Virus record (IMG/VR): IMGVR_UViG_3300049847_000494
Location: 1-64,000 of that record
Source: a virus
Length of the DNA: 64,000 nucleotides
Direction: 5' to 3' (one strand)
In this document: piece by piece, positions 11,897 through 29,543 of the stretch
Numbering within the stretch: position 1 is the first letter of the stretch
Layout: each line of letters begins with the position of its first letter
Program-made: the position numbers and the translations under genes
The notes under the pieces: model-generated
Seen by the model: only the letters and a program-made list of their open reading frames with translations
Databases searched by the model: none
Told to the model about the DNA's origin: nothing

Positions 11897-12163
11897 ATGA
11901 AAATATACGCTGAAATACTAGAGCCTGTCACAACCGGTACCAGGGTACGAGTATGCCAACAAGATGGCAGGTCGGTAGCTTCAGCTAACTTTTCTAATGG
12001 AAAGCAGGGTACAATAAAAGCAATAAATGGTAAAATTGCTTTTATTGAGTTAGATCAGAATAATACACCAGCATTAGCTGTAGATTCTGGTAATGCTGTT
12101 GGTGTAACAGTTAAACTGCCTATAGTAGGCAACACGGGTTTGACAATTACTTATGAACCTTGA
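11897..12163 (+). CDS. Unknown small beta-rich protein
   Basis: An 88-residue protein with alternating hydrophobic strands (RVRVCQQDGR, GTIKAINGKIAFIEL, GVTVKLPIVG) and no helix-rich segment. The ATG follows the previous stop directly and the end overlaps the next start by 11 bases. No family was recognised. Position in the fibre-proximal cluster suggests a virion accessory protein, but this is only context. Confidence 0.65.
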   Translation: MKIYAEILEPVTTGTRVRVCQQDGRSVASANFSNGKQGTIKAINGKIAFIELDQNNTPALAVDSGNAVGVTVKLPIVGNTGLTITYEP

Positions 12164-12935
12164 AGAAGCTACTCAGCTACGTGATACGATCCAATCCAGT
12201 CTTACTGGGTATCATGCTTATTGTAAAATCTCACCAGCAGCCGATGAGGCTTATCAGGTAGTTGTTGTGCAACAAGGTGCAATTTTACCAAAGTTACCAG
12301 AAGGTATCAAAGTAATAGTTGATCCTACTTTTGAGCCGATCAGTAGCGAAGGTATGGATTTAGAGAAACCACAAAGTTTAACTAACAGAACAACTGAGCT
12401 TCCTGAGGAGATCCGCTGGCGAAACAGGGAGATACAGGATCTTGTTAAAAGGGTTGCAACTATGAGTACAATAAATAATATCGTACGAGGTATTGAAGTT
12501 TTAGCTTTAGGTAGAGACTCTCGTATTGATTCTCTTCTAGAAAGCCTACAAAGTGACCTGATGTTAAGTGGTTTAAAAGCTACTAATCCACTAGTTAGGT
12601 TACTTAACAAGGTACAAAAAAGCTATAAAGAAGATTTAGCTGATGCTCTTGTAGCTTCTTTAAAAGCAAAATACCCAGAAGCTTCTGATTTTATAATCAA
12701 AGCAAAGCATATCCACAAGCTAATAAATGAAGTTGGTGATATTAGTCCAGACGATAATAAAAAAGTGGATATAGCTAAAGAAGCTTCCCAGCTACTAAGG
12801 GAAGTAGATGTGCTATGTATGAAACTCACGACCAAGATGAAGCAGCTTGATTTAGCTGAAGAAGCACATCAGCTAAAAGCTATGTCAGGTGCTGCTAAGG
12901 ATATATTTAAAGCTGTGAGCAAGCAAATAGGGTAA
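12153..12935 (+). CDS. Unknown helical protein, last gene before a terminator
   Basis: A 260-residue protein. The N-terminal 65 residues form a small alpha/beta segment; the rest is predominantly helical with charged heptad-like stretches (about residues 85-260). No catalytic motif is visible. It overlaps the preceding gene by 11 bases and is followed by a strong rho-independent terminator at 12962-12993, so it closes the transcription unit that starts upstream with the fibre genes. Confidence 0.65.
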   Translation: MNLEEATQLRDTIQSSLTGYHAYCKISPAADEAYQVVVVQQGAILPKLPEGIKVIVDPTFEPISSEGMDLEKPQSLTNRTTELPEEIRWRNREIQDLVKRVATMSTINNIVRGIEVLALGRDSRIDSLLESLQSDLMLSGLKATNPLVRLLNKVQKSYKEDLADALVASLKAKYPEASDFIIKAKHIHKLINEVGDISPDDNKKVDIAKEASQLLREVDVLCMKLTTKMKQLDLAEEAHQLKAMSGAAKDIFKAVSKQIG

Positions 12936-12961
12936 AGCAATTTGAAATTAAAATTGTAGCT

Positions 12962-12993
12962 AAAGCCAGCTTTCTAAAAAGGCTGGCTTTTTT
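12962..12993 (+). terminator. Rho-independent terminator
   Basis: A perfect 9-bp stem (AAAGCCAGC / GCTGGCTTT) with an 11-base loop, running into a T tract of six. It lies 26 bases after the stop of the 260-residue gene and ends the left-hand + strand unit. Confidence 0.9.
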
Positions 12994-13005
12994 GTGGGGT
13001 TTGCC

Positions 13006-13461
13006 ATGATAGTACAAGTTATAAGTGGTATACTTTATGCAAATTTAATTGAATGGCTAGCCCACAAATACATCCTACATGGTTTAGGTAAAAAGAAAAA
13101 GAGCTTTTTTAGCTTTCACTGGTCTTATCACCACCGCATATCTAGAAAATTAGGTATGTATGATCCATCATACTTAGAAAGTTCTTTTTCGTCTAACAGA
13201 TGGAAAGAGGTTTGCGGAATACTATTGTTAATGGTAATACACACCCCAGTAGTATTTATACTATCTTACTTTACAATAGCAACCTGGGTATACGCTTTAC
13301 TATACCTCTATTTACACAAAAAGTGCCATATCGATGTGAAATGGTGTAAAAAGTACATGCCATGGCATTATAGGCATCATTTAGGTAAAAATCAAGATAG
13401 TGATTTTAATGTAGTTTTCCCTATTGTTGATTACCTGTTTAATACCAGAAACGGAGCTTGA
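13006..13461 (+). CDS. Fatty acid hydroxylase / sterol desaturase-like membrane protein
   Basis: A 151-residue protein from ATG 13006; a GTG at 12994 would overlap the terminator and is less likely. It carries the di-iron histidine signature of the fatty acid hydroxylase superfamily in order: HX4H (H20, H25), HX3HH (H38, H42, H43), HX3H (H104, H108) and HX2HH (H121, H124, H125). Hydrophobic helices lie around residues 3-18, 70-90 and 92-104. Known members oxidise membrane lipids, sterols, carotenoids or lipid A acyl chains. The substrate here is unknown; modification of host envelope lipids is an inference. All ligand positions look intact. Confidence 0.75.
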   Translation: MIVQVISGILYANLIEWLAHKYILHGLGKKKKSFFSFHWSYHHRISRKLGMYDPSYLESSFSSNRWKEVCGILLLMVIHTPVVFILSYFTIATWVYALLYLYLHKKCHIDVKWCKKYMPWHYRHHLGKNQDSDFNVVFPIVDYLFNTRNGA

Positions 13462-13463
13462 AA

Positions 13464-13802
13464 GTGGGCTGTAACTGTCGTGGGAATAACTCTTACATAC
13501 CTACAGTAAATAGAGGTACAGCACAGGTGAACAACTTGTGCTCGGTAGTCAATAAAGCACAAAATAATTTACCTTTAAATATTGACCAATCAGGTAGTCT
13601 AATACTACCTTCTACCTATTTACCAGCACATTCTTCCTTATCCTCACAGCGGTGCACTGGTGTTTACGTAGAGCGTATACTAGCAGCCGAGCTTGTTATA
13701 ACAGCTAACTTCAGTAACCCTATTTGGAAAGCTACATTCCTGAGTAAAGTAGGTAACAATCCTACTCTTGGATCTATTGAAGCTTTATTAAAAACAATTT
13801 AA
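13464..13802 (+). CDS. Unknown 112-residue protein with N-terminal CxC motif
   Basis: The likely start is GTG 13464, eight bases after GGAG at 13453-13456; an upstream TTG at 13458 has no usable spacing. The protein begins GCNCRGNN and has further cysteines at about residues 25 and 64. The remainder is Ser/Thr/Asn-rich with predicted beta content. No family was recognised. The short gap to the previous gene suggests co-expression. Confidence 0.6.
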   Translation: MGCNCRGNNSYIPTVNRGTAQVNNLCSVVNKAQNNLPLNIDQSGSLILPSTYLPAHSSLSSQRCTGVYVERILAAELVITANFSNPIWKATFLSKVGNNPTLGSIEALLKTI

Positions 13803-13851
13803 ACCTTGACAACAACCTACTTCATATTTAGTCTATACTAAAGAGGTTTAA

Positions 13852-14004
13852 ATGAATGATGTTAAAGTAATGAAGTATTTCTTTACAGCTTTAGCCGTTA
13901 TGGCTATAGCTGGTTTTGTTACTGGTCTTTTAGCAGAAATAAGTAAAACTGAACGGTATAAAGCCTGTATTGAAAAGTACAGTCATCAAGTTTGTTCCGA
14001 ATAA
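13852..14004 (+). CDS. Small single-pass membrane protein
   Basis: A 50-residue ORF. Residues 9-28 form one hydrophobic segment (FFTALAVMAIAGFVTGLL) preceded by lysines. The short C-terminal tail contains two cysteines (KACIEKY..VCSE) and would face the periplasm. An AGAGG site lies just upstream. It pairs with the lipoprotein gene 9 bases downstream. It is too short for an ordinary inner-membrane spanin; function unknown. Confidence 0.55.
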   Translation: MNDVKVMKYFFTALAVMAIAGFVTGLLAEISKTERYKACIEKYSHQVCSE

Positions 14005-14229: not shown

Positions 14230-15204
14230 GTGAAAGATTATTATAAAGTCTTAGGCGTAAGCAAAACAGCAACCGATGCAGAAATTAAGAAAGCTTATAA
14301 AAAGCTAGCAATTAAATATCATCCTGATAAGAACCCAGATAACAAAGAAGCTGAAGAAACCTTTAAGCAGATTTCAGAAGCTTACGCTACCTTGTCTGAC
14401 AAGAACAAGCGTCATGCCTATGACAACCCACAACAAGCCTATAACCCATTTGGTGGAGTCGATTTAGAATCAGCTATGGCTGATTTTATGTATCGACAAC
14501 ATCAACAAACACAAATTATTCAGCTTCAAAAGATGATCACACTGAAAGATGCCGTGTTTGGAGCTAAATTTGATATTGATCTTCAATACAATAAGCCTTG
14601 TCTTCCTTGTAAGGAAACAGGCTACAAAGATGGTAAGGTAATTACTTGCTCAAAATGCAATGGCTTAGGTATGGTTACCTTAACTAAGGGTTCCTTTAGA
14701 ATACAGCAAACTTGCCCAAGCTGTCAGGGTAAAAAGTACCAAGCAGATTCTAACGCTAAGCGTTGCTCCTCCTGTAATGGAGCAGGTGCCATAAATGCTA
14801 AAAAGAAAATCAATATTAAAGTACCTCCAGGTGTACATAGTCAACAAATCCTTGGTTTAAAGGATGTTGACTTTGAAGGTATTGGTAATAGAAATATACA
14901 TGTAATGTTACATATTCAAGATGAAGCTGATTTTCAGCAAATGAATAAGGATATTCTTACCAAGGTAGAACTTCCTGTCATTACTGCGTTGCTTGGTGGT
15001 AAGTATAAAGTCAAGGGTCTTGAGGGTAACACACACGAAGCAGAAATAAGTGCAGGTACTCAATCAGGTGAGTTTATCAAAATCAAAGAAAAGTACACAC
15101 CTACTGGTGGTGATTTCTACGGTGTAGTACACATTAAGGTACCGAAAAATCTATCAGAGGATACAAAGCAAAAGTTAGAGGAGCTACGAAAGGAATTATC
15201 CTGA
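14230..15204 (+). CDS. dnaJ: DnaJ-type (Hsp40) co-chaperone
   Basis: A 324-residue protein starting at GTG 14230 with AGAGG eight bases upstream. The J domain (residues 1-67) has the HPD motif at 31-33, needed to stimulate DnaK. The Gly/Phe linker is very short. Four zinc-binding CxxC motifs follow at about 124-127, 140-143, 162-165 and 179-182, then the client-binding C-terminal domains. Bacterial DnaJ is usually about 375 residues, so this is a compact version. No phage DnaK is in the window, so it probably recruits host DnaK to phage replication or folding. The DNA polymerase gene follows 30 bases later. Confidence 0.93.
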
Positions 15205-15234: not shown

Positions 15235-18200
15235 ATGCGAACCACATTAAAGCACCCCAAAACGTTTTGTGAGGGGTGCTCCCTAAATAAAACCCGTAAC
15301 AAGTTAAGTCACTACATACCTACTGATGTTTACTATAATCAAGTAAACGATGAGGGTAAGCCACAAGTAGACCTACTTATAGTAGGCGATCCCCCTGGTA
15401 AGGCAGAAGATGAGTCTTCTATGCCTTTCACCGGGGCAGCTGGTTTTGAAATAAAACAAGCCCTAGTAGATGGTAATATTACATCCTATGCTATAGCTCA
15501 TAGTGTGCGCTGTAGACCTGTAGGACCTGACGGTAAAAATCGTGCACCTACAGCAGAAGAAGCCGCTGCCTGCTCTAATTACATCAAACAAGATTTAGTA
15601 CAATTACGTCCAAAAGTAGTATTATTACTCAGTAATATAGCAAAAGATGTAATTGCACCTAAAGAATGGAAAAGTATAGGTATTAATAAGCTGCGTGGTG
15701 ATATTCTAACCACAGAAGGTACTACCTATACAGCTACAGTTAATCCAAATCAGTTTATTAGAAGCAATAACTATCTAGAAAAACAACAATTCTACCGGCA
15801 TGTCGCCAATACTAAAAGACTAATAACCGGCGAACATTCAGCGTATTCACGTAAAGGTATTACACAAGTATTAAAAACTGAAGAAGATGTTTTCAAGTTT
15901 ATTAATATATTAGAAACAGTACCCTCAGAGTACGTATTTGTTGATACAGAAACTGAAAACCTAAACCGGGTAGCACCTAATAAAGTAGCTACTATACAAT
16001 TTGCTATGGATAATGAGGTAGGCTACGTTATACCTATTGACCATTGGCAATCACCATTTAGCCCAGAAGCTACAGAGCGTATAGTATCCAGACTTGGACA
16101 ATTATTCAGCAATCCAGATCTGCCTTTTGAATGCTGGTGTGCCCATGGCACCAAATTCGATTATAACAAAATATGCCGTAGATTTAATATACATCGTACA
16201 GGTAAACCTTTCTTAGATACTATCATGCTAGAGTACCTCCGTGATGAAAATCAACGTCGAGGTGCTGATGACGATGAAGGCGGGGGTGGACAAGAAGGTG
16301 CTGGTGTAGCGTTTGACTTAAAGTCTATGGCTAAAGACAAGTTATGCTTCCGGCATTACAAATCAGAAATGCTTGAAGCCAGGAAAAGCGGCTCCTTTAT
16401 AGAGGAGCCACTATGGCTTGATAATGGCAAAATAAGTGATTTCTCCGATTATGCCGGTATGGATGTTTATGTAGGTCGAAGATTACTTTGCTATATCTTA
16501 GAGGATCTTGAAAAAACAGGTCATAAGCAAAAATCTTGGAACTTTGCCATTAAGTGGAGTTTTCGTGTTACTCACTTATTAAGTAAAATAGAAATTAATG
16601 GTGCTTTTGCTGACAAAGACCATTTGGATTACTTACAAAGTGAGTATTCACCTATTCTAACACGGATGTTAGAAATACCACAAGATATTATGGAATCACC
16701 TGAAGGTAAAAAAGCTAATGCTTTGTTGCTGGAAACAGGTAATAAAACCAAGGGTTTCCGTCCTCTGTTTGGTAAGCAACCTACCGTATTTAGTATAGAT
16801 AAAAAAGATCATAGAATAGCTCTATTGGTAAATACCTGTAAGCTTGAACCAGTTTCTTACGGTAAACTGAAAGATGAAAATGGTAAGGAGATCCGAGCTA
16901 GACGTGGTGAAGTTGATAAAGGGAATGGCATAGCCAGCATTGATAAAGCTTTTTATGCCCAGCATAAAGGTAACTACTTTTCGGATATTATACAGGAGTA
17001 TGAAGGACTAAAGAAACTCAAATCAAGTTACCTTGATTCAGTAAGAAGCTTTCTTACCGATGAGTTTATACAAACAAAACGAGGTTTGCAATCTAATGCG
17101 GATAACTTGTTTGATGGTAGAATCCATGCTACTTTCTGGGATTCCAGGACTGTAACAGGTAGATTAGCTTCTTCTGCGCCAAACATGCAGCAACAGCCGC
17201 GATCAGATACTTTTGCTAAAGCAATGATTAAAAGCCTTTATGGGGCAGCGCCAGGACACTTTATACTAGAAGCCGACTATGGACAAGCTGAAGTTAGGTG
17301 GTGGGCTCAAATAGCTAAGGATAAGGAATACGCTGCTTTATTTTGGAACATGTACCATATCATCCAGGAATATGAAGCTAACCCTACACCCGAGCTGAAG
17401 CTGCGTGTAGAAAACGAATGTGATATCCATAAGCAAGTATCATCTGCTATGAATAGGATACCTATTACAGAGGTTACTAAAGAACAAAGACAGGCAGCTA
17501 AAGGGCTTTGTGTAGCTAAAGGTACACTTATAAGAACTGAAGAAGGTTTAATTCCTATTGAAGAAGCTATTGAAAATTGGAAGGGCGAATTAAAGCTGGA
17601 AACTAGGGCAGGTGTAGAAACTGCTAATAAAGCTTATGAAATTACTGTAGATAAAACTATTAAAGTAACATCTGGTAGAGGGTTTGAATTGGAAGGTAGA
17701 CCAGAACACCCTATCTTAGCTTGGAGAGATTGCAAGCTACAGTATGTAGAGCTACAAGATCTACAAGAAACTGATAATATAGTTATTAGAAGAGAAGCTA
17801 AATTATGGCCTACCAGGGAAATACCCTTGGTGCCGTATGTGCGGGAGCGTAACGGAGGTCAGGGATCTGAACCCTACCCATGTAGCATGCCAGAATTTCT
17901 CGATGGTGATCTTGCAAGGCTTATAGGTTATATCACAAGTGAGGGTTTTTCAAATGCAGAACGTACTATTAGTATTAGTAATACAGATAGAAGAATAATA
18001 GAAGATATTAGGTATATTCTGACATCTAAATTTGGAACAACAGGCTACTCTGAGTTTGTAAACAATAAGGACAGGATTGAAATACAAGGACATAAACCAT
18101 GTACTTGTTTCAGTATCAATGCTAGTGCTAGCAGATTTTTACGTTTAAACAACTTAGTTGGTTTTGAAACGTCTTACACAAAGTATGTTTCACCTGCTAT

Positions 18201-19620
18201 ACTAAAATCACCTAAAAATGTGATTATCGAATTTCTTAGAGGTTACATTGCAGGGGACGGATCCTCTGATAAACGTCAAATAAAAGTAACATCTGCATCA
18301 GAACAGCTTATGAAAGAAATTCAGATTTTATTTATAGATCTGGGTCTTATTTCAAGTAGACGTTCTGAATACGTTGTGACTAATAAAGGAGAAGGTTTAT
18401 ACTGGAATGTGACACTTGTAGGAAAAGAAGTGGATACAGCTTGGATCCTTATACCACCTATTCGACCTTTAAAAATACCAACACCTAAGAAGTTTAACAA
18501 TTCCAATCTTGACAAGATTTTCGGCTTACATGATAAAATTAAAGAGATTAGAAAAGATAATCAACATGTAGCAGGGAACCAACATAAAGGTCATTGGCAA
18601 TATCCAGGCTTCCCTTGGACAGGTGCAAAGGAACTTACAATAGGTTTTTATAGAACACATAGAGAGCAAATAACAAAAGGATTATTAGCACGAGGTAAAA
18701 CAGAGTTAGTCGCTGACATAAATGAGATATTAGATCAAGGCTATTTCTTGGATACTTTAAAGCACAAAGAAGAAAAGACAACTAAAGGACAAGTTGTCTA
18801 TGACTTTACAGTTCCTGGAAGTCACTCATTTGTCACACAAAGTTTTCTGTCTCGTAACACATTTGGGGTCATCTTTGGCATGGTGGCTAAATCACTTTCT
18901 GTGCTTATTAAGTGTTCTGAGCAGGAGGCTCAAAAGCTAATGAACGATTTAACCAATCGCTTTGAACGTGCGGGTGGTTGGTTAACCTATATTGAAGAGT
19001 TTGCCATTGACAATGGTTATGTTATGTCACCTTATGGTAGGGTAAGGCATTTAGCCCATCTAGCTGGTGACCAGGAACACTTACTAAGGCGTTTGGCTCG
19101 TAATTCACCTATTCAAGGTGCGGCATCGGATACTACAGCTTTAGCTGCTTGGACCTTACAAGATTGGATTGAACGCAATAATAAACCATACAAAATATGG
19201 AATGTTGTGCATGATGCTATTTATACAGAAGCTCCACTTACAATGGAAGCCTTACAAGAATGTATCAGCCAAACCAAGCGTTGCATGACACAGATCGGCG
19301 GTTTACTGAAAGACGATTTTGGGATTGACTTGATCGTACCGCTTGTAGTAGATTTCAAAGTAGGCTTACGCGGTGGAAGTTGTAAAACAATTGATGCTGA
19401 AACTAATCTTGAGGATTTCCTAAAAAATCTACAAGCTCAAGACAGGCGCATGCACAATGGTGATAAGTGGTGGCAAATAGCTACAGAACTTGAAATTAAA
19501 AGCTTGCAAAAAGAGATGTCTAAGGTTGAGAAAGATAAGAAGGACGGTTTTGAAGCCAAGTTAAAGAAAATAAGCCTTCAAATAGAGCATCACAAACAAA
19601 ACTTAGAGCGAGCAAAATGA
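15235..19620 (+). CDS. DNA polymerase: UDG-like domain + 3'-5' exonuclease + family A polymerase, with intein
   Basis: 1461 residues before splicing, about 1011 after. Residues 1-200 resemble family 4 uracil-DNA glycosylase: GDPPG (51-55), PFTGAAG (64-70), and all four Fe-S cysteines (C12, C15, C93, C113); the final HPS-type loop is altered to NPNQF. The DnaQ-like exonuclease has DTE (D237, E239), a later HG..FDYNK and YAGMD. The family A core has motif A DYGQAEVR (D681), motif B RQAAKGL...TFGVIFGM split by the intein, and motif C VHDAIY (H1326, D1327). A similar UDG-polymerase arrangement is known in SPO1-like phages. It is the probable replicative polymerase. Confidence 0.93.
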   Translation: MRTTLKHPKTFCEGCSLNKTRNKLSHYIPTDVYYNQVNDEGKPQVDLLIVGDPPGKAEDESSMPFTGAAGFEIKQALVDGNITSYAIAHSVRCRPVGPDGKNRAPTAEEAAACSNYIKQDLVQLRPKVVLLLSNIAKDVIAPKEWKSIGINKLRGDILTTEGTTYTATVNPNQFIRSNNYLEKQQFYRHVANTKRLITGEHSAYSRKGITQVLKTEEDVFKFINILETVPSEYVFVDTETENLNRVAPNKVATIQFAMDNEVGYVIPIDHWQSPFSPEATERIVSRLGQLFSNPDLPFECWCAHGTKFDYNKICRRFNIHRTGKPFLDTIMLEYLRDENQRRGADDDEGGGGQEGAGVAFDLKSMAKDKLCFRHYKSEMLEARKSGSFIEEPLWLDNGKISDFSDYAGMDVYVGRRLLCYILEDLEKTGHKQKSWNFAIKWSFRVTHLLSKIEINGAFADKDHLDYLQSEYSPILTRMLEIPQDIMESPEGKKANALLLETGNKTKGFRPLFGKQPTVFSIDKKDHRIALLVNTCKLEPVSYGKLKDENGKEIRARRGEVDKGNGIASIDKAFYAQHKGNYFSDIIQEYEGLKKLKSSYLDSVRSFLTDEFIQTKRGLQSNADNLFDGRIHATFWDSRTVTGRLASSAPNMQQQPRSDTFAKAMIKSLYGAAPGHFILEADYGQAEVRWWAQIAKDKEYAALFWNMYHIIQEYEANPTPELKLRVENECDIHKQVSSAMNRIPITEVTKEQRQAAKGLCVAKGTLIRTEEGLIPIEEAIENWKGELKLETRAGVETANKAYEITVDKTIKVTSGRGFELEGRPEHPILAWRDCKLQYVELQDLQETDNIVIRREAKLWPTREIPLVPYVRERNGGQGSEPYPCSMPEFLDGDLARLIGYITSEGFSNAERTISISNTDRRIIEDIRYILTSKFGTTGYSEFVNNKDRIEIQGHKPCTCFSINASASRFLRLNNLVGFETSYTKYVSPAILKSPKNVIIEFLRGYIAGDGSSDKRQIKVTSASEQLMKEIQILFIDLGLISSRRSEYVVTNKGEGLYWNVTLVGKEVDTAWILIPPIRPLKIPTPKKFNNSNLDKIFGLHDKIKEIRKDNQHVAGNQHKGHWQYPGFPWTGAKELTIGFYRTHREQITKGLLARGKTELVADINEILDQGYFLDTLKHKEEKTTKGQVVYDFTVPGSHSFVTQSFLSRNTFGVIFGMVAKSLSVLIKCSEQEAQKLMNDLTNRFERAGGWLTYIEEFAIDNGYVMSPYGRVRHLAHLAGDQEHLLRRLARNSPIQGAASDTTALAAWTLQDWIERNNKPYKIWNVVHDAIYTEAPLTMEALQECISQTKRCMTQIGGLLKDDFGIDLIVPLVVDFKVGLRGGSCKTIDAETNLEDFLKNLQAQDRRMHNGDKWWQIATELEIKSLQKEMSKVEKDKKDGFEAKLKKISLQIEHHKQNLERAK
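17509..18858 (+). other. Intein with LAGLIDADG homing endonuclease, inserted in polymerase motif B
   Basis: 450 residues (759-1208 of the precursor). The first residue is Cys759 after RQAAKGL. Splicing block A is CVAKGTLIRTEEGLIPIEE. Two LAGLIDADG-like helices are GYITSEG (898-904) and GYIAGDG (1003-1009). The C-terminal blocks are VYDFTVPGSHSF and SFLSRN, with Asn1208 and +1 Thr1209. Excision would join RQAAKGL to TFGVIFGM and rebuild motif B exactly. The residue before Asn is Arg where most inteins have His, which may slow Asn cyclisation. Both acidic LAGLIDADG residues are present (E903, D1008), so the nuclease may be active. Confidence 0.92.
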
Positions 19621-20085: not shown

Positions 20086-20145
20086 CAAAAGTATAATATG
20101 TTCCCTTGACATCCTCCCCGTCCTAAAGGACGTGGATTCCTGGAT
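20086..20145 (-). ncRNA. Predicted TnpB guide RNA (omega-RNA) 3' part, copy 1
   Basis: From the tnpB stop through the right-end hairpin (8-bp stem with one mismatch, TTTA loop) to GGATGTCAA, then about 20 bases of flanking DNA (20105 down to 20086) acting as the guide. This layout follows known TnpB systems; the boundaries are inferred from comparison with copy 2. The predicted target would be the pre-insertion site beginning after TTTAT. Confidence 0.5.
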
Positions 20146-21280
20146 CACTTTAGATCTAGCGTTTGATGCCCCAAACGGAGAATGTTTATTGCAGCATTTG
20201 TATCCCGGTCATGATGCCGGTTACAAGTATTACAAACCCACTCTCTTATCCCCAAACCTTCTAGTCCTCTCGGACCACCTACTGTTAAACAGTAGGAACA
20301 GGTTTGAGTTGTAAGGTGTTCACTTACCTCAGTATAATTTCCTGAATGCCTAATGGCTTTATATTTCAAGAACGTCTTAATCATACCCCAACCAGAATCA
20401 TTAACAGACTTAGCCATCTTAGTCTTTGTAAGCTTCTTACTACTTACATCACCTACAAATATATCTTGGTAGTTTTTAGCTATTTCAGTAGTAAGCTTAT
20501 GACAAGCATCTAACCTGGAGTTCTTAATTTTAGCATGGATAGCTTTAACAGCTTTCCTCTTTTTATCTTTTTGAGCAAGAGCTAGTTTTCTTTGATGTTT
20601 TTGATAGAATTTTCCGTTCTTATACTTTTTACCGTGGGATGTTGTAGCTAATGTCTTTAAACCTAAATCAATACCTACACTGGTATTTTCAGGAGCAGGT
20701 TTAAGCTGCTCTACTTCACACACGAGGTTAATATACCACCTACCTCTTGTATCCCTACCAAAAGAACCTGACTTAATTCTACCTGGTAATTTCCGGCTAT
20801 TCCAGTAATTAATTGTTTTACCACAATACTTTAGGGTATCATCATTTATTACCTTAATAGCCGAGCCTTTAAAGGGTAACCAAGGTAAAGACTTTTTACC
20901 ACGGTATCTTAGCTTAATCTTCTTAGCTTTGTTTCTTTTGTTAGCATATTCTTCACATACAACTTGTATAGAAGTAGAATGAATGTTAAGCTCTTTAGAA
21001 GTACCTGATGTAAGGTTATTTAAGTCAAAGCCAGATAACCATTTACCATCTCTTTTAATAGCATTAAAAGCAGTATTATTACAATAGTTCCATACATAAT
21101 TAACAGCACCTGAAGCTTGTTCTAACCAAGCCACACCTGAGGAATCCTTAATCCGGTAACTGAAAGTCTGAAGTATCATGTTAAACCTAATTTACAAGAA
21201 AAGATGTAAAATGAAGAAAGAAAAGCTTGCATCCCCGCCCTGCAGCTACGCTGGAAGGACGTGGTTTTATGCTAAAGAGG
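20106..21280 (-). mobile_element. IS200/IS605-group, IS1341-like insertion sequence, copy 1 (TnpB only)
   Basis: A 1175-bp element in minus orientation. The right end carries a hairpin and finishes in GGATGTCAA (20106). The left end begins CCTCTTTAGC next to a flanking TTTAT at 21281-21285 (read on the minus strand). Both ends match copy 2 (22861-24005), which defines the boundaries. No tnpA is present, so it needs a transposase in trans. It separates the small coiled-coil gene from the membrane-protein gene at 21289. Confidence 0.85.
20145..21179 (-). CDS. tnpB: TnpB (RNA-guided nuclease of IS1341-like element), copy 1
   Basis: A 344-residue protein. RuvC-I is GIDLGLKT (D171), the zinc ribbon is C294, C297, C316 and C319, and RuvC-III is RDTNAA (D326). 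At the usual RuvC-II glutamate the sequence is IFVGDVSS (D244), so the canonical Glu is absent. A conserved Glu before the zinc ribbon (E284 or E287 in TEVSEHLTTQ) may replace it, as described for TnpBs with rearranged RuvC-II sites. TnpB uses an RNA from the element's right end to cut DNA and keep the IS in place. The ORF is intact. Confidence 0.92.
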   Translation of the reverse strand: MILQTFSYRIKDSSGVAWLEQASGAVNYVWNYCNNTAFNAIKRDGKWLSGFDLNNLTSGTSKELNIHSTSIQVVCEEYANKRNKAKKIKLRYRGKKSLPWLPFKGSAIKVINDDTLKYCGKTINYWNSRKLPGRIKSGSFGRDTRGRWYINLVCEVEQLKPAPENTSVGIDLGLKTLATTSHGKKYKNGKFYQKHQRKLALAQKDKKRKAVKAIHAKIKNSRLDACHKLTTEIAKNYQDIFVGDVSSKKLTKTKMAKSVNDSGWGMIKTFLKYKAIRHSGNYTEVSEHLTTQTCSYCLTVGGPRGLEGLGIREWVCNTCNRHHDRDTNAAINILRLGHQTLDLK

Positions 21281-21566: not shown

Positions 21567-22028
21567 ATGAAAAAACCTATAGAGCCTAGAAAACCAGTAG
21601 AACCACAAAAAGATAAAGAAGTATATGTAGATACGACTATACCAGATATTACCTATAGTTACAAAGTAGATTATGATGATTATGGTCAGTCAGCTACATT
21701 TGAAAATTTCACTATCAGTGTTGGTGAAGTTAGGAAGCTGCTAGCTAACATAGATCCTCAAATAGATCCTGGTACTACAATATTCTTTAGTCCATATGCT
21801 GTAGAATACCGTGTTAGTAAAACAGTCCATGATCCTAAATATGATCAGAAAAGGGCTAGGTATCTAAAAGACCTTGAACGATATGAAACTAAAAAAGTTG
21901 AGTTTGAGGAAAAATCGAAACTATACGATGCATGGTTAAAAACACATCAAGAAGAAAACCTTACTAAGGAATACGAAAAAGCTAAAAAAGACTTGTTAAA
22001 ATTAGAGAAAAAGCTTAGGTTAAGGTAA
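21567..22028 (+). CDS. Unknown charged protein
   Basis: A 153-residue protein from ATG 21567, two bases after the previous stop; an in-frame ATG at 21537 would add ten residues. A Pro/Lys-rich N-terminus is followed by a probable small globular beta segment (residues 25-90). A long Lys/Glu-rich helix (about 95-153) likely forms a coiled coil. It ends TAATG with the next gene. No family recognised. Confidence 0.65.
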
Positions 22029-22654
22029 TGGACGATTTAAACTTTAAAAAGAAATGGTATAATTATCTCCCTAAGCGGGTAACCTATTTCTACTTTAGGG
22101 TAATATGGTACCGTAAGCAATGGCTTATCAATTTATTCCAGTTTTTAGTAAATCTAACTAAGCTGATATACAGCGTAGGTATCATCCAATACCGTAAAGG
22201 TACTAAAGCTTACAATAACATGTTTAAAGCTTTAAGTAATATTTATAGCAAGTGCCATGTAGTAAAAGGCAGGTTAGAGGCTTTTGCTGAAACCGGAACT
22301 GAAGGTTTTGTATGGATGCTTAATGATGCTACTAAGTCTGGTTATGAGGCTTTGGTACCTATTGAAAATGGTGATAAACTATTGATTTTTGACCACCATG
22401 GTAAGTGCATCTTTTGTGACTATATAGAGGAGGATCATGAAGCTGGTTATCAAGCCTATCCGCTAAACCCAAAATACGGTCAACCTGAAGCTTTTGGTTG
22501 TTGGATTCATTGGACGCAACGTGGTTATACACCCCAAAAATGGGCAGCTTTGTTTTTTCATAGTGTAGTGAATACAGAAGAGCACCCACTGTTATCAAAC
22601 AATAGTGATAAGGTAGCCTATCGTGCTATACTAATTAAAAAGTGCAATACTTAA
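22028..22654 (+). CDS. Unknown 208-residue protein, duplicated in the genome
   Basis: The start overlaps the previous stop (TAATG). The basic, aromatic N-terminus (about residues 10-60) may associate with membranes. The C-terminal half ([10 protein letters not shown]...[20 protein letters not shown]) looks like a compact alpha/beta domain with Cys residues. Its last 26 residues match the remnant at 24237-24327, just upstream of the histidine kinase, so a second copy of this gene once existed there. Function unknown. Confidence 0.7.
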
Positions 22655-22860: not shown

Positions 22861-24005
22861 CGTCTTCAGTGTAAAACCCGTCATTCAGGGCTGGGATGTA
22901 AGCTTTTATTTTCTTGTAAATTAGGTACAACGTGATAATTCAAACTTTTAGTTACCGGATTAAGGATTCATCAGGTGTAGCTTGGTTAGAACAAGCTTCA
23001 GGTGCTGTTAATTATGTATGGAACTATTGTAATAATACTGCTTTTAATGCTATCAAAAGAGATGGTAAGTGGTTATCTAGCTTCGATTTACATAACCTTA
23101 CATCAGGTACTTCTAAAGAGCTTAAGATATCTTCTACTTCTATACAAGTTGTTTGTGAAGAATATGCTAACAAAAGAAACAAAGCTAAGAAGATTAAGCT
23201 GAGATACCGTGGTAAAAAGTCTTTACCTTGGTTACCTTTTAAAGGCGCAGCTATTAAGGTAATAAGCGATGATACTATAAAGTATTGTGGTAAAACAATT
23301 AATTATTGGAATAGCCGGAAATTACCAGGTAAAATTAAAACTGGATCTTTTGGTAGAGATGCAAGAGGTAGATGGTATGTTAACCTCGTGTGTGAGGTAG
23401 AGCAATACCAACCTGCCCCTGAAGGTACCAGTGTAGGTATTGACCTTGGTTTAAAGACATTAGCTACAACATCCCATGGTAAAAAGTATAAGAACGGAAA
23501 ATTCTATCAAAAACATCAAAGAAAACTAGCTCTTGCTCAAAAAGATAAAAAGAGGAAAGCTGTTAAAGCTATCCATGCTAAAATTAAGAACTCCAGGTTA
23601 GATGCTTGTCATAAGCTTACTACTGAAATAGCTAAAAACTACCAAGATATATTTGTAGGTGATGTAAGTAGTAAGAAGCTTACAAAGACTAAGATGGCTA
23701 AGTCTGTTAATGATTCTGGTTGGGGTATGATTAAGACGTTCTTGAAATATAAAGCCATTAGGCATTCAGGAAATTATACTGAGGTAAGTGAACACCTTAC
23801 AACTCAAACCTGTTCCTACTGTTTAACAGTAGGTGGTCCGAGAGGACTAGAAGGTTTGGGGATAAGAGAGTGGGTTTGTAGTACTTGTAACCGGCATCAT
23901 GACCGGGATACAAATGCTGCAATAAACATTCTCCGTTTGGGGCATCAAACGCTAGATCTAAAGTGATCTAGGAATCCCCGTCCTTTAGGACGGGGAGGAT
24001 GTCAA
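22861..24005 (+). mobile_element. IS1341-like insertion sequence, copy 2 (TnpB only), inserted in an older TnpB relic
   Basis: A 1145-bp element in plus orientation, inverted relative to copy 1. It is preceded by TTTAT (22856-22860), starts CGTCTTCAG, and ends in an 8-bp perfect hairpin (23976-23983 / 23988-23995) and GGATGTCAA. Flanking sequences on both sides are parts of a different TnpB, so this is an IS-in-IS arrangement. No tnpA is present. Confidence 0.85.
22932..23966 (+). CDS. tnpB: TnpB, copy 2
   Basis: 344 residues from GTG 22932. It has the same architecture as copy 1: D171, D244 in place of the RuvC-II Glu, a zinc ribbon, and RDTNAA. Differences from copy 1 cluster strongly: about fifteen substitutions in residues 1-166 and one in residues 167-344. 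The ORF is intact and probably functional with its own right-end RNA. It is likely expressed from the upstream promoter at 22666 as well as from the element. Confidence 0.92.
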   Translation: MIIQTFSYRIKDSSGVAWLEQASGAVNYVWNYCNNTAFNAIKRDGKWLSSFDLHNLTSGTSKELKISSTSIQVVCEEYANKRNKAKKIKLRYRGKKSLPWLPFKGAAIKVISDDTIKYCGKTINYWNSRKLPGKIKTGSFGRDARGRWYVNLVCEVEQYQPAPEGTSVGIDLGLKTLATTSHGKKYKNGKFYQKHQRKLALAQKDKKRKAVKAIHAKIKNSRLDACHKLTTEIAKNYQDIFVGDVSSKKLTKTKMAKSVNDSGWGMIKTFLKYKAIRHSGNYTEVSEHLTTQTCSYCLTVGGPRGLEGLGIREWVCSTCNRHHDRDTNAAINILRLGHQTLDLK

Positions 24006-24025
24006 AGCTCGCAGACATGTTTGGG
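23966..24025 (+). ncRNA. Predicted TnpB guide RNA (omega-RNA) 3' part, copy 2
   Basis: The right end of copy 2: hairpin CCCCGTCC-TTTA-GGACGGGG, then GAGGATGTCAA, then about 20 bases of guide (24006-24025). The guide is taken from the interrupted older TnpB, so the RNA would direct cleavage of the uninterrupted form of that gene next to TTTAT. Extent is inferred from known TnpB systems. Confidence 0.5.
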
Positions 24026-24211
24026 TGTGGTACTATTGATGCAGCTAATCGATTGAACCAGGCAGAGTTTTGTTGTGTAGTTTGCCAACTCAAAATGCAT
24101 GCTGATTTGAACGCTGCACTAGTTTTAAAAAGCCGTGCGAGTCGCTCGGCTCAGCCTGTGGAGGGCTCGGCAATAGCCACCCGTCGAAGCAGGAAACAGC
24201 CCAAAAGCTGA
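24006..24211 (+). pseudogene. C-terminal remnant of the second TnpB
   Basis: One frame encodes GCGTIDAANRLNQAEFCC, then VVCQLKMHADLNAA, then QPVEGSAIATRRSRKQ. It matches TnpB C-termini (CG...NR..QAxFxCxxC...HAD.NAA...PVEG), including the RuvC-III Asp (HAD). The apparent ATG at 23999 lies inside the IS right end, so this is not a real gene start. About 80-100 residues expected between this and the fragment at 22715 are missing, and the frames do not join, so the older TnpB was already decayed. Confidence 0.78.
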
Positions 24212-24236: not shown

Positions 24237-24327
24237 ATTACTGCAGAAGAGCACCCACTTTTATCAAAAAAAAAAAAAATAGTGACAAAGTAGCATACCG
24301 AGCTATACTAATTAAAGCAGCCACATG
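24237..24327 (+). pseudogene. 3' remnant of a duplicate of the 208-residue gene
   Basis: It encodes AEEHPLLS, a four-lysine insert, then [13 protein letters not shown] and a stop. It matches the last residues of the protein at 22028-22654 at both DNA and protein level. The insert comes from an A14 run (24266-24279). Its TGA overlaps the ATG of the histidine kinase, the usual coupling in this genome, so this was the native upstream neighbour before the relic element disrupted it. Confidence 0.75.
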
Positions 24328-25053
24328 ACAACAGAAAATGACACCCTAAAAGAGCTTGTAACCAAACTACAAAAAGCCAATGAGGAGCTTGAAAGGTTTG
24401 CTTATGTAGCTTCTCATGATTTAAAAGCACCCTTACGTGCTATATCTAATTTAGCTGGGTGGATCAAGGAGGATATAGATTCCTGTTCTATTACAGCTGA
24501 GACACAGTCTCACCTGAAAATGATGTTATCCAGGGTTGCCCGTATGGATAAGCTCCTTGACGATCTACTAACTTATGCTAGAGTAGGTAAGAACAAGGAT
24601 AGCTTGGAGCTTATTGAAATTGACGAGTTGATTAGAAGTGTAGTAGATGTACTTACCATAAAAAAGTTTGAGATAGTTATTGAGTCTGAAATATCCAGCT
24701 TTATAGCTGAGCGTGTTCCTTTAGAGCAAGTCCTTATGAATCTAATAGGTAACTCTATAAAGCACCACACTAAAAAGAGTGGTACTATTACTATAGGCAT
24801 AATAGATAAGCAGACGAAACTTGAGTTTACCATAACAGATGACGGTCCTGGTATACCAATAAAGCAACAAGACGAAGCTTTTGAGATGTTCAAAACTTTA
24901 AAACCTCGGGATGAGGTAGAGGGATCAGGTATGGGCTTGGCTCTAGTTAAAAAGATAGTGGAAAGTCAGGGTGGTAAAATTGAAATACTACCAACGAAAA
25001 AAGGTTTAAGTGTCAGGTTTACTTGGATTAAAGAAGTAGCCACCAGTGTTTAA
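24325..25053 (+). CDS. Soluble sensor-type histidine kinase
   Basis: A 242-residue protein. A short N-terminal coiled coil leads into the dimerisation/phosphoacceptor domain with SHDLKAPLR (His31) and the ATP-binding domain with N box NLIGNSIKHH (Asn143), G1 DDGPGIP (172-178), F-box region and G2 GSGMGLAL (200-207). All catalytic motifs are intact. No transmembrane or recognisable sensor domain is present, so it is cytoplasmic and may sense through partner proteins. It overlaps the next gene by 8 bases; together with the two receivers this is a complete phosphorelay set. Histidine kinases are rare in phages. Confidence 0.92.
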   Translation: MTTENDTLKELVTKLQKANEELERFAYVASHDLKAPLRAISNLAGWIKEDIDSCSITAETQSHLKMMLSRVARMDKLLDDLLTYARVGKNKDSLELIEIDELIRSVVDVLTIKKFEIVIESEISSFIAERVPLEQVLMNLIGNSIKHHTKKSGTITIGIIDKQTKLEFTITDDGPGIPIKQQDEAFEMFKTLKPRDEVEGSGMGLALVKKIVESQGGKIEILPTKKGLSVRFTWIKEVATSV

Positions 25054-25447
25054 TATACTATTAGTAGATGATGACAGTGTTGATGTCATGACGCTACAGC
25101 GGGCTTTCCGTAAACACCCAATTATGAAGAAAGCTAAGCTACTTACAGCTAAAAGTGGAAAAGACGCTTTAGATAAGCTACTTTCAGGTGAAATAGAAGA
25201 GCCAAGCATAGTATTACTTGATCTTAATATGCCAGAAATGGGTGGGTTGCAGTTTTTAGAGCATGTTCGATCTAACCCACAGCTTGCTAAATTACGTGTA
25301 ATCGTATTAACAACATCAGCTGATAAAAACGACATCAATCAAGCTACCGATAAATGTATTGTTGGTTATATCAAGAAAGCCAAAGCTGGTGATTATACCA
25401 CTCTTACAGAGCTAATTTATCATTACTGTTCTCTAACAGAGAGTTGA
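25046..25447 (+). CDS. Stand-alone response regulator receiver protein
   Basis: A 133-residue protein, GTG start inside the 3' end of the kinase gene. It is a single receiver domain: acidic pocket VDDD (8-10), phosphoacceptor Asp59 in VLLDLNMPEMGG, conserved Thr in VLTTSA, and conserved Lys in YIKKAKAG. It lacks an output domain. The form resembles single-domain regulators paired with phytochrome-type kinases. It probably shuttles phosphate or competes with the cyclase receiver; that is inference. The next gene starts 2 bases after the stop. Confidence 0.9.
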   Translation: MFNILLVDDDSVDVMTLQRAFRKHPIMKKAKLLTAKSGKDALDKLLSGEIEEPSIVLLDLNMPEMGGLQFLEHVRSNPQLAKLRVIVLTTSADKNDINQATDKCIVGYIKKAKAGDYTTLTELIYHYCSLTES

Positions 25448-25448
25448 C

Positions 25449-26327
25449 ATGCTAAATATTTTTCTATTAGAGGATGATGATGCAGATAGCTTGCTTATAA
25501 GCTTGACACTGAAAAAATCAGGCGTAGATTTTAAGCTAACAACCGCTAAAACCTTAGAACAAGCAAAAGAAACAATAAATACTTGTACGTTCGATTGTGC
25601 TATCCTTGATAATACCTTACCTGATGGTAAGGGTCTTACCCTATTAGATAGCTTACAAGATACACCTTGTATTATGCTAACAGGTTTGGCTGATGAAGCT
25701 TATGCTATCAAGGCAATCCAACAGGGATTGGAAGATTATATTAGTAAAGATTCTATCACGCCTAAAAATCTAATAAAATCTATAACTTATGCAATAGAAC
25801 GTAATACTATTAAAAAGCAGTTAGTGGCTACACAAAAGAAGTTAGACGATTTATCTAAAGCTGATCCACTAACAGGATTGCTAAATAGACGTGGGCTAGA
25901 TGAGGTACTAAACCGTTTAGCTACACGGGATACCTCACATGGTATCATCCTGATTGATATCGATAACTTTAAGACGATCAACGATAACTTTGGATATAAT
26001 GCTGGTGATACAGCTATCAAGTATATAGCAGACAAATTGTCAAAGGAGGTTAGACCCTTTGACATTGTATCACGTGTAGGCGGTGACGAGTTTATTATTC
26101 TTGTACAGAATGTAGATATTACTGCTTGTAAGCTAGTCGCTGAAAGAATCCGATCAGCTATTGCTTTTGAACAGGTCACCAGTGGTGACAATAAATTTAG
26201 TATAACCGTAAGTATAGGAGTATCAACAGTAAACCAAGTTTCAAAAAATATAGAACTATTGTTAAAATTAACACAAAATGCTTTAAAGCAAAGCAAATCC
26301 AAAGGAAAGAATGCCGTCTATGCGTAA
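25449..26327 (+). CDS. Response regulator diguanylate cyclase (REC-GGDEF)
   Basis: A 292-residue protein. The receiver domain (1-120) has EDDD (8-11), Asp54 in AILDNTLPDG and Lys100 in YISKD. A helical linker (about 121-138) leads to a GGDEF domain: DPLTGLLNRRG (139-149), LIDIDNFKTIND (metal/substrate site) and intact VGGDEF (210-215). RPFD (202-205), five residues before GGDEF, is the RxxD product-inhibition site. Known enzymes of this type (PleD, WspR) make cyclic di-GMP from two GTP when phosphorylated. No EAL or HD-GYP domain is in the window. It is likely activated by the adjacent kinase. Confidence 0.93.
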   Translation: MLNIFLLEDDDADSLLISLTLKKSGVDFKLTTAKTLEQAKETINTCTFDCAILDNTLPDGKGLTLLDSLQDTPCIMLTGLADEAYAIKAIQQGLEDYISKDSITPKNLIKSITYAIERNTIKKQLVATQKKLDDLSKADPLTGLLNRRGLDEVLNRLATRDTSHGIILIDIDNFKTINDNFGYNAGDTAIKYIADKLSKEVRPFDIVSRVGGDEFIILVQNVDITACKLVAERIRSAIAFEQVTSGDNKFSITVSIGVSTVNQVSKNIELLLKLTQNALKQSKSKGKNAVYA

Positions 26328-26775
26328 TATATTAAGTACTATTAAACTTTTTCTAGGGTTCAAACCAAAGAAGACAGTAGCTAAGACCTATATTGATTTT
26401 GTAACCCATTTAGAAAAAACTTTACCTCATAAAGATAGTTATGTTATGCTGACTCAGCATTCTTTAGAATATGGGTTATTAACTAATAAGTTTATTCTTG
26501 TTGAAAAACCTAATAATAAGTTTGTTCTTTCCTTTTTTATCCTATCAGACCCCCAGTTTGTTGCTTTGGTATATGGTTCAGCCTTAGAATACTTTAATAA
26601 AAAGAATCTTGAGTTGCAAGCTTCTTTTGTCTACAAACTTGATGGTAGTATTTGTCTAACAACTGATCCTAACTTTCGTAAGGTCTACGAAAGTCTATTG
26701 ACACCTGGTAAGGTTTACGATAGTCTATCAACTGTACCAACGACACAACCAGTAAAAAAGTCAGAAATGAACTAA
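26311..26775 (+). CDS. Unknown protein downstream of the cyclase
   Basis: A 154-residue protein overlapping the cyclase end by 17 bases; AAAGGA precedes ATG 26311, with ATG 26320 as an alternative. A basic N-terminal helix is followed by an alpha/beta region with aromatic strands (NKFVLSFFILSD, FVYKLDGSI). No family recognised. Overlap suggests it belongs to the signalling operon and could be a target or modulator, which is not shown. Confidence 0.65.
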   Translation: MPSMRNILSTIKLFLGFKPKKTVAKTYIDFVTHLEKTLPHKDSYVMLTQHSLEYGLLTNKFILVEKPNNKFVLSFFILSDPQFVALVYGSALEYFNKKNLELQASFVYKLDGSICLTTDPNFRKVYESLLTPGKVYDSLSTVPTTQPVKKSEMN

Positions 26776-26787
26776 AGAGGAATCTAT

Positions 26788-27198
26788 ATGAATGCAAATA
26801 ATGAAAAGATCCTGTTTACTTATATTCAAGACAAAAATGAACCTTTGCGGGTCCTAACCGTTGCTAGGCAACGTATTGAAAATACTATTTACTTTTCTTA
26901 TTGCATTAATAAGGTAGCTACTGACATCAATAGGAATACACGAGAAAGTTATAAGAATTATACTATCCTAACCCAGAAAAAAGAAATTGCAGTGTTTGAT
27001 TTCCACAACAAAAAGCGTGCTAGGGAGATCGTGACAGGTAGGCTCAAATCGGAATCTAATAACTATTCTGTTACACTCCAAGGCGGCGAAAGCCCCCTAA
27101 CTGCTGTGTTGTATGCACTTATGACTGAGCATCATCATAAACATGTAAGTAAAATTGCTAAACAAGCTGTAGAAGCTGGTTTCGGTTTACCTAAGTAA
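26788..27198 (+). CDS. Unknown 136-residue protein
   Basis: ATG preceded by AAAGAGGA (good spacing). Mixed alpha/beta composition, with a central basic stretch (HNKKRAREIVTGRLK) and a C-terminal helix with a His cluster (EHHHKHVSK). No recognised domain. It ends 2 bases before the Fe-S carrier gene. Confidence 0.65.
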   Translation: MNANNEKILFTYIQDKNEPLRVLTVARQRIENTIYFSYCINKVATDINRNTRESYKNYTILTQKKEIAVFDFHNKKRAREIVTGRLKSESNNYSVTLQGGESPLTAVLYALMTEHHHKHVSKIAKQAVEAGFGLPK

Positions 27199-27200
27199 CT

Positions 27201-27524
27201 ATGATTCAACTAACCCAACGAGCCACAGAAAAAATACTAGAGATTAGATCTACTGAAAACCTTGGTGACCAAGGACTAAGACTTAAAGTCATTGGAGGGG
27301 GTTGCTCCGGATTTCAGTATGATCTCCACTTTGAAGATACAGTAGCAGATACTGATGAAGTATTAAGCTTTAATAACATAGATCTTTATGTAGACATGAT
27401 TAGTTTCCAGTATCTGGATGAAACTACAATAGATTATATTGATGAATTGTACGGGTCAGGTTTTAAATTTTTGAATCCCAAAGCTAAAGCAACGTGTGGT
27501 TGCGGTTCCAGTTTTAATGTTTAG
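27201..27524 (+). CDS. A-type iron-sulfur cluster carrier (IscA/ErpA/HesB family)
   Basis: A 107-residue protein matching the full family length. The three cluster-binding cysteines are present: Cys35 in GGGCSGFQY, and Cys99 and Cys101 in CGCGSSF at the C-terminus. Known members carry Fe-S clusters to apo-proteins. A possible client is the Fe-S-type UDG domain of the phage DNA polymerase, whose four cysteines are intact; that link is inference. Position is between two unknown genes, spacing 2 and 9 bases. Confidence 0.93.
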   Translation: MIQLTQRATEKILEIRSTENLGDQGLRLKVIGGGCSGFQYDLHFEDTVADTDEVLSFNNIDLYVDMISFQYLDETTIDYIDELYGSGFKFLNPKAKATCGCGSSFNV

Positions 27525-28487: not shown

Positions 28488-29543
28488 TTGATTAAATACA
28501 TTGGTTCAAAAAGACTACTGATACCACTAATAACCGAGACTATAGCTACTATACAAGCAACAGGTACAGTACTTGACCTATTTTCAGGTACATCAAGAGT
28601 AGGTCATGCTTTAAAGAAAGCTGACTATCGTGTAGTTGCTAATGATCATAATAGCTATGCTGCTATAATAGGTCGATGTTACGTGCAAGCTGATTATGAG
28701 GATCACATCAAAGATGCTACAAAACTAGTAAAAGAGTTTAACCTAATGTCAGGTATACCAGGCTACTTCACAGAAACTTTTTGTGAAAAAAGCAGGTTTT
28801 TCCAGCCTAAAAATGGTGCTAAGGTTGATGCTATTCGTGAAGCTATAACAGCTAAAGGCTTAAATCCTGAGCTTGAGGCTATTATGCTGGTTTCACTAAT
28901 GGAAGCCGCTGATAGAGTTGATAGTACTACTGGGGTACAGATGGCTTACCTAAAACAGTGGGCTAGCCGGTCATTTACTGACCTGGAACTACGTGTACCT
29001 GATATCCTCCCCAAGGCTAAAGCTGGTAAATCTGAAGCACACCAGTTAGATGCCATTATAGCAGCTTCTAAGCTTGAGGCTGATATAGCCTATATTGACC
29101 CACCGTATAACCAGCATAAATACTTAGGTAACTACCATATCTGGGAATCCCTGGTGCTATGGGATAAGCCTAAAGTTTACGGTATTGCATGTAAAAGGGT
29201 AGATGTTAGGGACAGGTCAAGTGACTTTAACTCGAAAGTTAGGGCGCGTGCTGCATTAAGCTCAGTACTTAAAAATAGTAAAGCTAAACATTTAGTAGTA
29301 TCTTTTAATGATGAAGGTTATTTTAGCAAAGATGAAATAGAATCAATGCTTAGCTTTCATAAATATGTAGTTACTATTGAACAAAACTTCAATAGGTATG
29401 TAGGCGCAAAAATTGGCATACATAATATGGATGGTAAAAAAGTTGGCAAAGTAAGCCATACTAAAAACTTAGAATACGTTTATGTAGCTACTTCTGATAA
29501 GCAGGTTGCAGCGAAAATAACTAAACTTAAGTCAAGTAAATGA
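28488..29543 (+). CDS. D12-class adenine-N6 DNA methyltransferase
   Basis: A 351-residue protein starting at TTG 28488 with GGGAG six bases upstream. It begins KYIGSK as in Dam-like enzymes, then the SAM-binding motif DLFSGTSRVG (30-39) and catalytic DPPY (204-207), the alpha-class order. The end overlaps the next gene by 4 bases (ATGA); that gene encodes a PD-(D/E)XK nuclease. Together they look like a restriction-modification pair, with this enzyme protecting phage DNA. The recognition sequence cannot be read from the protein. Confidence 0.9.
   Translation: MIKYIGSKRLLIPLITETIATIQATGTVLDLFSGTSRVGHALKKADYRVVANDHNSYAAIIGRCYVQADYEDHIKDATKLVKEFNLMSGIPGYFTETFCEKSRFFQPKNGAKVDAIREAITAKGLNPELEAIMLVSLMEAADRVDSTTGVQMAYLKQWASRSFTDLELRVPDILPKAKAGKSEAHQLDAIIAASKLEADIAYIDPPYNQHKYLGNYHIWESLVLWDKPKVYGIACKRVDVRDRSSDFNSKVRARAALSSVLKNSKAKHLVVSFNDEGYFSKDEIESMLSFHKYVVTIEQNFNRYVGAKIGIHNMDGKKVGKVSHTKNLEYVYVATSDKQVAAKITKLKSSK

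Follow-up and report, generated by a model that had tools for sequence, protein, structure and literature searches.

Three adjacent signalling genes

The window analysed here, i.e. the whole stretch of 64,000 nucleotides that forms bases 1-64000 of the record IMGVR_UViG_3300049847_000494 (132,976 bp, linear, possibly a fragment), carries between positions 24325 and 26327 three overlapping or abutting genes (Table 1), which encode a soluble histidine kinase, a stand-alone receiver and a REC-GGDEF protein predicted to act as a diguanylate cyclase. A first-pass annotation, made from the sequence alone, had credited these proteins with all catalytic boxes of a kinase, a phospho-accepting aspartate, and an intact GGDEF motif with an RxxD product-inhibition site (I-site), respectively, and the open reading frames, Pfam matches and alignments bear this out in each case.

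Table 1. Coordinates of the features discussed in the text (aa, amino acids; identities refer to the corresponding protein of the other phage).
Sequence	Feature	Position	Strand	Basis or identity
Window	Family-A DNA polymerase (PolA) with N-terminal uracil-DNA-glycosylase domain and LAGLIDADG intein	15235-19620		
Window	Soluble histidine kinase, 242 aa, HisKA and HATPase_c	24325..25053	+	Pfam; alignments with related phage and bacterial relatives
Window	Stand-alone receiver, 133 aa, Rcp1/phytochrome-response-regulator type	25046..25447	+	Pfam; PDB matches
Window	REC-GGDEF protein, predicted diguanylate cyclase, 292 aa	25449..26327	+	Pfam; PDB matches DgcR and PleD; AF2; Foldseek
Window	Coiled-coil linker helix from REC to GGDEF, residues 105-136	25761..25856	+	AF2 secondary structure
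Window	RxxD product-inhibition (I) site, R202-D205	26052..26063	+	Alignment with DgcR
Window	GGDEF motif, residues 211-215	26079..26093	+	Alignments
Window	Hypothetical protein, overlaps cyclase stop	26311..26775	+	Syntenic homologue beside related-phage cyclase, 27-32% identity
Window	Hypothetical protein	26788..27198	+	Syntenic in related phage, 36% identity
Related phage	Kinase	11830-12564		61% identical
Related phage	Receiver	12531-12965		59% identical
Related phage	REC-GGDEF	12967-13899		52% identical
240-kb phage, same capsid clade	REC-GGDEF	L149:8233-9231	-	
240-kb phage, same capsid clade	GGDEF-EAL	L149:11725-13725	-	

The kinase matches HisKA (6e-10) and HATPase_c (7e-23) above the Pfam cut-off and far beyond chance. 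Its phospho-acceptor H31 (codon 24415-24417) lies within the H-box SHDLKAPLR, and this residue, N143, D172xG174xG176 and G200SGMG are intact and common to the related phage described below; in an alignment of 12 rows comprising phages and bacterial relatives, H31, N143, D172/G174/G176, G202 and G204 are invariant. The AF2 model (pLDDT 82) folds residues 2-51 into one continuous helix, and a search for an input or sensor module found no Pfam domain in residues 1-21, which are helix only and part of an N-terminal coil of about 30 residues. Since this helix is the sole part upstream of the catalytic domains, the activity of the predicted kinase probably depends on its expression, on the free receiver or on another partner, and the enzyme could be weak without a sensor.

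At position H+4, a Thr or Asn is typical of HisKA phosphatase activity. The phage protein carries an Ala there (A35), as do many relatives, which argues for a weak phosphatase activity. The same residue bears on a reading in which the kinase stays silent for the most part, the cyclase runs at a basal rate, and kinase and free receiver together restrain c-di-GMP synthesis. Such an arrangement draws on the fact that sequence alone cannot fix the role of the free receiver; however, given the missing Thr or Asn in the kinase and its bacterial relatives alike, we regard it as improbable.

The receiver gene begins with a GTG codon and overlaps the kinase gene by 8 nt. Its product matches Response_reg (4e-17) and, among known structures, 6xvu, 2qvg and RcpA/Rcp1, and its key residues D8/D9/D10, D59 (the phospho-acceptor, codon 25220-25222), T89 and K111 are intact and conserved in the related phage.

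For the REC-GGDEF protein, Pfam returned Response_reg (4e-16) and GGDEF (2e-37). The receiver part retains E8/D9/D10, D54 (codon 25608-25610), T78 and K100, all common to the related phage, and the catalytic domain is intact with D170/D172, N178, FKxIND, GD187, the GGDEF motif and K283, of which D187 and GGDEF predict the use of GTP. A point against the reading as an active enzyme is that the C-terminal GRN motif of PleD-type enzymes reads GKN, i.e. its arginine is replaced by lysine. Among PDB entries, DgcR of Leptospira biflexa ranks first both in sequence (E 2e-34) and in fold; it is likewise a full-length REC-GGDEF protein with the same I-site and a switchable coiled coil. In the alignment, R202xxD205 falls on the RxxD of DgcR, which structure 6zxb, an I-site mutant, shows as AxxA. 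This structure is also the top Foldseek match (3.5e-27) of the AF2 model (pLDDT 90.5), in which a long helix joins REC to GGDEF. TM-scores are modest for the full model, presumably reflecting a differing relative orientation of the domains, whereas the GGDEF domain by itself gives a good fit.

Phosphorylation of DgcR shifts the register of its coiled coil, and linkers of this class vary in length by steps of seven (PMC8041772). The phage linker is one heptad and one loop residue longer than that of DgcR, with a spacing of 39 between the REC lysine K100 and DxLT, L125 and L132 at heptad a positions, S136, and the axxdexx leucine pattern in place. Because both length and leucine pattern fit the register-switch rule, the REC-GGDEF protein should be phospho-switchable. 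Both phages and those bacterial operon members that were typed share the spacing of 39, while other proteins, including that of a 240-kb phage of the same clade, have 32, i.e. one heptad less.

Phage context and conservation

The contig belongs to a phage (Caudoviricetes), and the cassette is phage-borne. On the same record lie genes for the large terminase subunit (phrog_17415), the major head protein (phrog_2522) and the portal (phrog_16240), for UvsX, a sigma-factor-like protein and a ribonucleotide reductase with an HNH-endonuclease insert, and for a clamp loader, an exonuclease and PhoH. Relatives of capsid and terminase, at about 30-35% identity, occur in jumbo phages such as PaBG and Peetri (Pseudomonas), BcepSauron (Burkholderia) and GR11A (Vibrio). 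As no tyrosine integrase was found in the record, a lytic life style is likely.

A capsid search led to a related phage, IMGVR_UViG_3300049855_000474 (153,375 bp, linear), whose capsid protein is 75% identical and in which all three genes recur with order and orientation unchanged. Both phages have PolA upstream, then kinase, receiver and REC-GGDEF, and finally two hypothetical genes; the two PolA proteins are of equal length and align end to end. While core proteins of the two phages are about 55-75% identical, the cassette genes share 0.53-0.60 of their amino acids, 0.36 of their third codon positions, which are saturated, and 0.19-0.44 of their fourfold sites, and this codon-position regime matches that of the clamp loader, PhoH and exonuclease genes. 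Given the synteny and the conservation of amino acids in the face of saturated third positions, the cassette is ancestral to both phages and under purifying selection. The two hypothetical genes have no family match and may belong to the module as well; the one that overlaps the cyclase stop, for which Pfam, PHROG, NCBIfam and PADLOC returned no match, is a possible fourth member of the cassette.

Just upstream of the kinase gene, two TnpB (IS605 OrfB) genes at 20106-21202 and 22909-24005 are inverted relative to each other and enclose 1.7 kb; with a third copy at 123137-124171 of the record they are near-identical (93-95%), and a TnpB-like relic ORF lies at 23999-24211. A stretch of about 70 nt at 22575-22639, in the 3' end of ORF 22028-22654, is duplicated at 24244-24316 (about 87%), directly before the kinase gene and flanking the TnpB element, and the duplicate contains a promoter-like match (24282-24309) that is not above chance. 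The TnpB of the related phage is of a different type (about 31% identical).

A region rearranged in this way invites the thought that the three genes are inert passengers, or host DNA joined to the phage contig during assembly, and the first-pass annotation had itself raised the prospect that the segment is host chromosome. However, the cassette stands at the same place in the related phage, whose sequence was assembled independently and lacks those elements, and the codon positions speak of long purifying selection, so that contamination and chimerism were rejected and we give the whole reading next to no credence. Acquisition of the cassette via the neighbouring TnpB elements was likewise dismissed, since in the related phage the cassette comes without these copies; they are probably a later addition to the neighbourhood.

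Elsewhere in the capsid clade the picture is patchier. No GGDEF, receiver or HATPase was found in a third relative of 137 kb, nor GGDEF and receiver in most of 18 further records, many of which are fragments; HATPase matches of 570-640 aa in other members were left out as likely topoisomerase-type ATPases, judged by size alone. A 240-kb member encodes a REC-GGDEF protein that has an RxxD site and, at a distance of 2.5 kb, a GGDEF-EAL protein, with both genes contained in 6 kb; one more member carries a bare GGDEF. As such, c-di-GMP genes recur in this phage group, and the kinase-driven form is so far confined to two of its members.

Counterparts in other viruses and in bacteria

Searched by tblastn against 50,697 phage records, the kinase found matches of at most about 30% identity, the full-length REC-GGDEF protein 30% at best, and the receiver was matched in only four records. 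GGDEF relatives are not rare in IMG/VR, where at least 500 loci are candidates, but of the best 80 of these and 11 kinase loci, only those in the related phage form the complete trio. These scans rely on short conserved patterns, so that absence is not proof; single-sequence scans of viral contigs gave little, and alignment-based ones did better. The three-gene order, whose search in phage genomes had been proposed at the outset, was thus found in one related phage and in no other virus searched. Our literature search, which left most subscription journals and preprints outside its range, found no paper on a phage kinase-receiver-cyclase cassette, in line with the earlier statement that no such described cassette is known.

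The nearest phage parallel is Microcoleus phage My-WqHQDG (OR578706.1), where a kinase and two receiver genes stand in a row (L243:3050-6140; their annotation names one response regulator and otherwise hypothetical proteins); its kinase, however, is 545 aa long with a longer N-terminal part, and no cyclase follows. Cyclase domains are encoded by Bacillus phages SP-15 and G and by the IMG/VR contigs G007, L164 and L165, several of them with a receiver or an RxxD site, but none has a kinase and a single receiver beside it. In SP-15 the lone GGDEF gene sits inside a polysaccharide cluster, and G007 adds a GGDEF-EAL protein. On the 116-kb virus contig L165, the GGDEF gene (4821-5675) comes right after a terminase-like gene, and its product combines a degenerate receiver, without recognisable acidic pocket or phospho-Asp, with an intact RxxD-GGDEF part. 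Two further, putatively viral IMG/VR contigs of 527 kb (L154:3767-6604) and 169 kb (L159:4269-6920) carry receiver-kinase-receiver-PAS and kinase-receiver-receiver sets, respectively.

In bacteria, the arrangement is a familiar one. Bacterial genomes were scanned with the kinase alignment and the neighbours of 80 loci were domain-typed: a single receiver is adjacent at 53 of them, a REC-GGDEF protein as well at 13, and the exact order of kinase, receiver and REC-GGDEF occurs at L042, L058, L062 and L068. HK-REC-REC-GGDEF(-EAL) is hence a recurrent bacterial operon with an Rcp-like receiver, and the phage cassette matches it in gene order, domain types, a closely similar H-box and the linker spacing. 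The claim of novelty therefore does not extend to the gene order, which is already known from bacteria; what is new is the reduced form in a phage lineage.

Operons close to that of the phage come, for example, from Colwellia polaris (L062), an alphaproteobacterial MAG (L042), Shewanella ulleungensis (L037) and the proteobacterial MAG JA1.bin24 (L044). The phage kinases nest within the operon-bearing bacterial clade (fork 99/98), with S. ulleungensis as a weakly placed sister (82/80). Bacterial operon kinases, however, measure about 400-1000 aa and have PAS, CHASE, CHASE3-HAMP or HAMP inputs, and their output protein mostly runs on into EAL (L044 is without EAL and L068 has GAF), whereas in the phage the kinase lacks a recognisable sensor and the cyclase ends after GGDEF. 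Relative to the bacterial operon, the phage form is thus without sensor and phosphodiesterase. The EAL domain may have been lost from an EAL-bearing ancestor or, equally possibly, the donor was already EAL-less, like L044. Compared with these sensor-equipped counterparts, the earlier suggestion that the system may sense a host cue has little basis.

Since bacterial operons of identical order exist, cognate pairing is implied. A different partnership can be imagined, namely that the cassette taps into host signalling, with kinase and free receiver exchanging phosphate mainly with host two-component proteins, either rewiring or draining them, and host kinases switching the REC-GGDEF protein. The kinase has no recognised input module, its H-box is common to 32 bacterial relatives, which makes docking to host receivers plausible, and other phages, e.g. 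L164 and G007, have a REC-GGDEF protein without a recognised two-component kinase nearby. We nevertheless consider this unlikely, as kinase and both receivers are co-conserved contiguously in two phages, which is what one would expect of mutual partners.

A predicted branched circuit

Two-component systems are the circuits by which bacteria as a rule take decisions, and in the choice between a motile and a sessile life, c-di-GMP serves as a master switch. A phosphorelay, as the set had been called, needs an Hpt step between two receivers. Hpt (PF01627) was found neither in the record nor in the related phage, by a search that was positive in 8 controls, so that the term does not apply: with a single kinase serving two receivers, the set reads as a branched two-component system. 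The earlier observation that the window holds no phosphodiesterase can be extended to the whole record, as EAL, HD-GYP and PilZ were found in neither of the two phage records, which are linear and may be incomplete, so that a gene for a phosphodiesterase or an effector could lie beyond them; an Rfam search found no riboswitch across the 132,976 bp.

With its biochemical function well predicted from sequence, the gene set is complete and apparently functional, and we consider it probable that it forms a minimal, phage-owned branched system that raises c-di-GMP in the infected cell. For the pairing of kinase and cyclase, their activity, the role of the free receiver and the effect on the host, we infer the following course. 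The soluble kinase would autophosphorylate on H31 without a dedicated sensor and pass the phosphate to D54 of the REC-GGDEF protein, whereupon the coiled coil would switch its register and pair the GGDEF domains for c-di-GMP synthesis, with the RxxD site capping the level by product inhibition. As the phage record holds no recognised effector, riboswitch or phosphodiesterase, the product most likely acts via host effectors, and motility, adhesion, envelope or pili would be affected. In part, the three proteins could also address host proteins rather than one another.

The stand-alone receiver (D59) would share the kinase and most likely tune it, either as a DivK-like allosteric adaptor or as a competing phosphate sink. 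In the PleC/DivJ-DivK-PleD circuit of Caulobacter, one kinase likewise serves a single-domain receiver and a receiver-controlled cyclase, although PleD has two receivers and the phage receiver has closer relatives than DivK. DivK, even when it cannot be phosphorylated, raises the kinase activity of PleC and hence the output of PleD (PMC3772055), and by analogy the phage receiver might stimulate its kinase in the same manner.

More tentatively, and with somewhat less than even confidence, one could speculate that this phage lineage domesticated a whole bacterial c-di-GMP operon in a version without sensor and phosphodiesterase, in which infection itself would be the input and a locked-on, I-site-capped pulse of c-di-GMP would reprogramme the cell, for instance in the surface structures needed by later phages. 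The absence of sensor and EAL relative to the bacterial operons yields a concrete hypothesis on the needs of infection. The cassette suggests that a virus sets the c-di-GMP signal of infected cells for itself. If so, this would be the first case of a two-component system that belongs to a virus and feeds into a second messenger, and by owning a complete kinase-to-cyclase circuit, phages would go beyond blocking host regulators and set a host second messenger directly, with a small and portable cassette of soluble proteins.

Rather than motility or adhesion, the cyclase product might feed or jam a nucleotide-based defence, an idea that gains some appeal from other accessory genes in the region, among them one for a DNA adenine methyltransferase. 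We hold such a counter-defence role to be about as improbable as the restraining circuit discussed above: the GGDEF domain bears the canonical c-di-GMP signature, the sole PADLOC matches of the cyclase are weak similarities to Cas10-palm and receiver models (E 1e-4 to 1e-3), and the bacterial relatives are ordinary signalling operons. The accessory genes nearby encode an ErpA/IscA-type iron-sulfur carrier (27201-27524), DnaJ (14230-15204) and the methyltransferase, which is of the D12 class (28488-29543); in the related phage, a gene resembling peptide deformylase lies before the kinase gene (L020:10799-11401).
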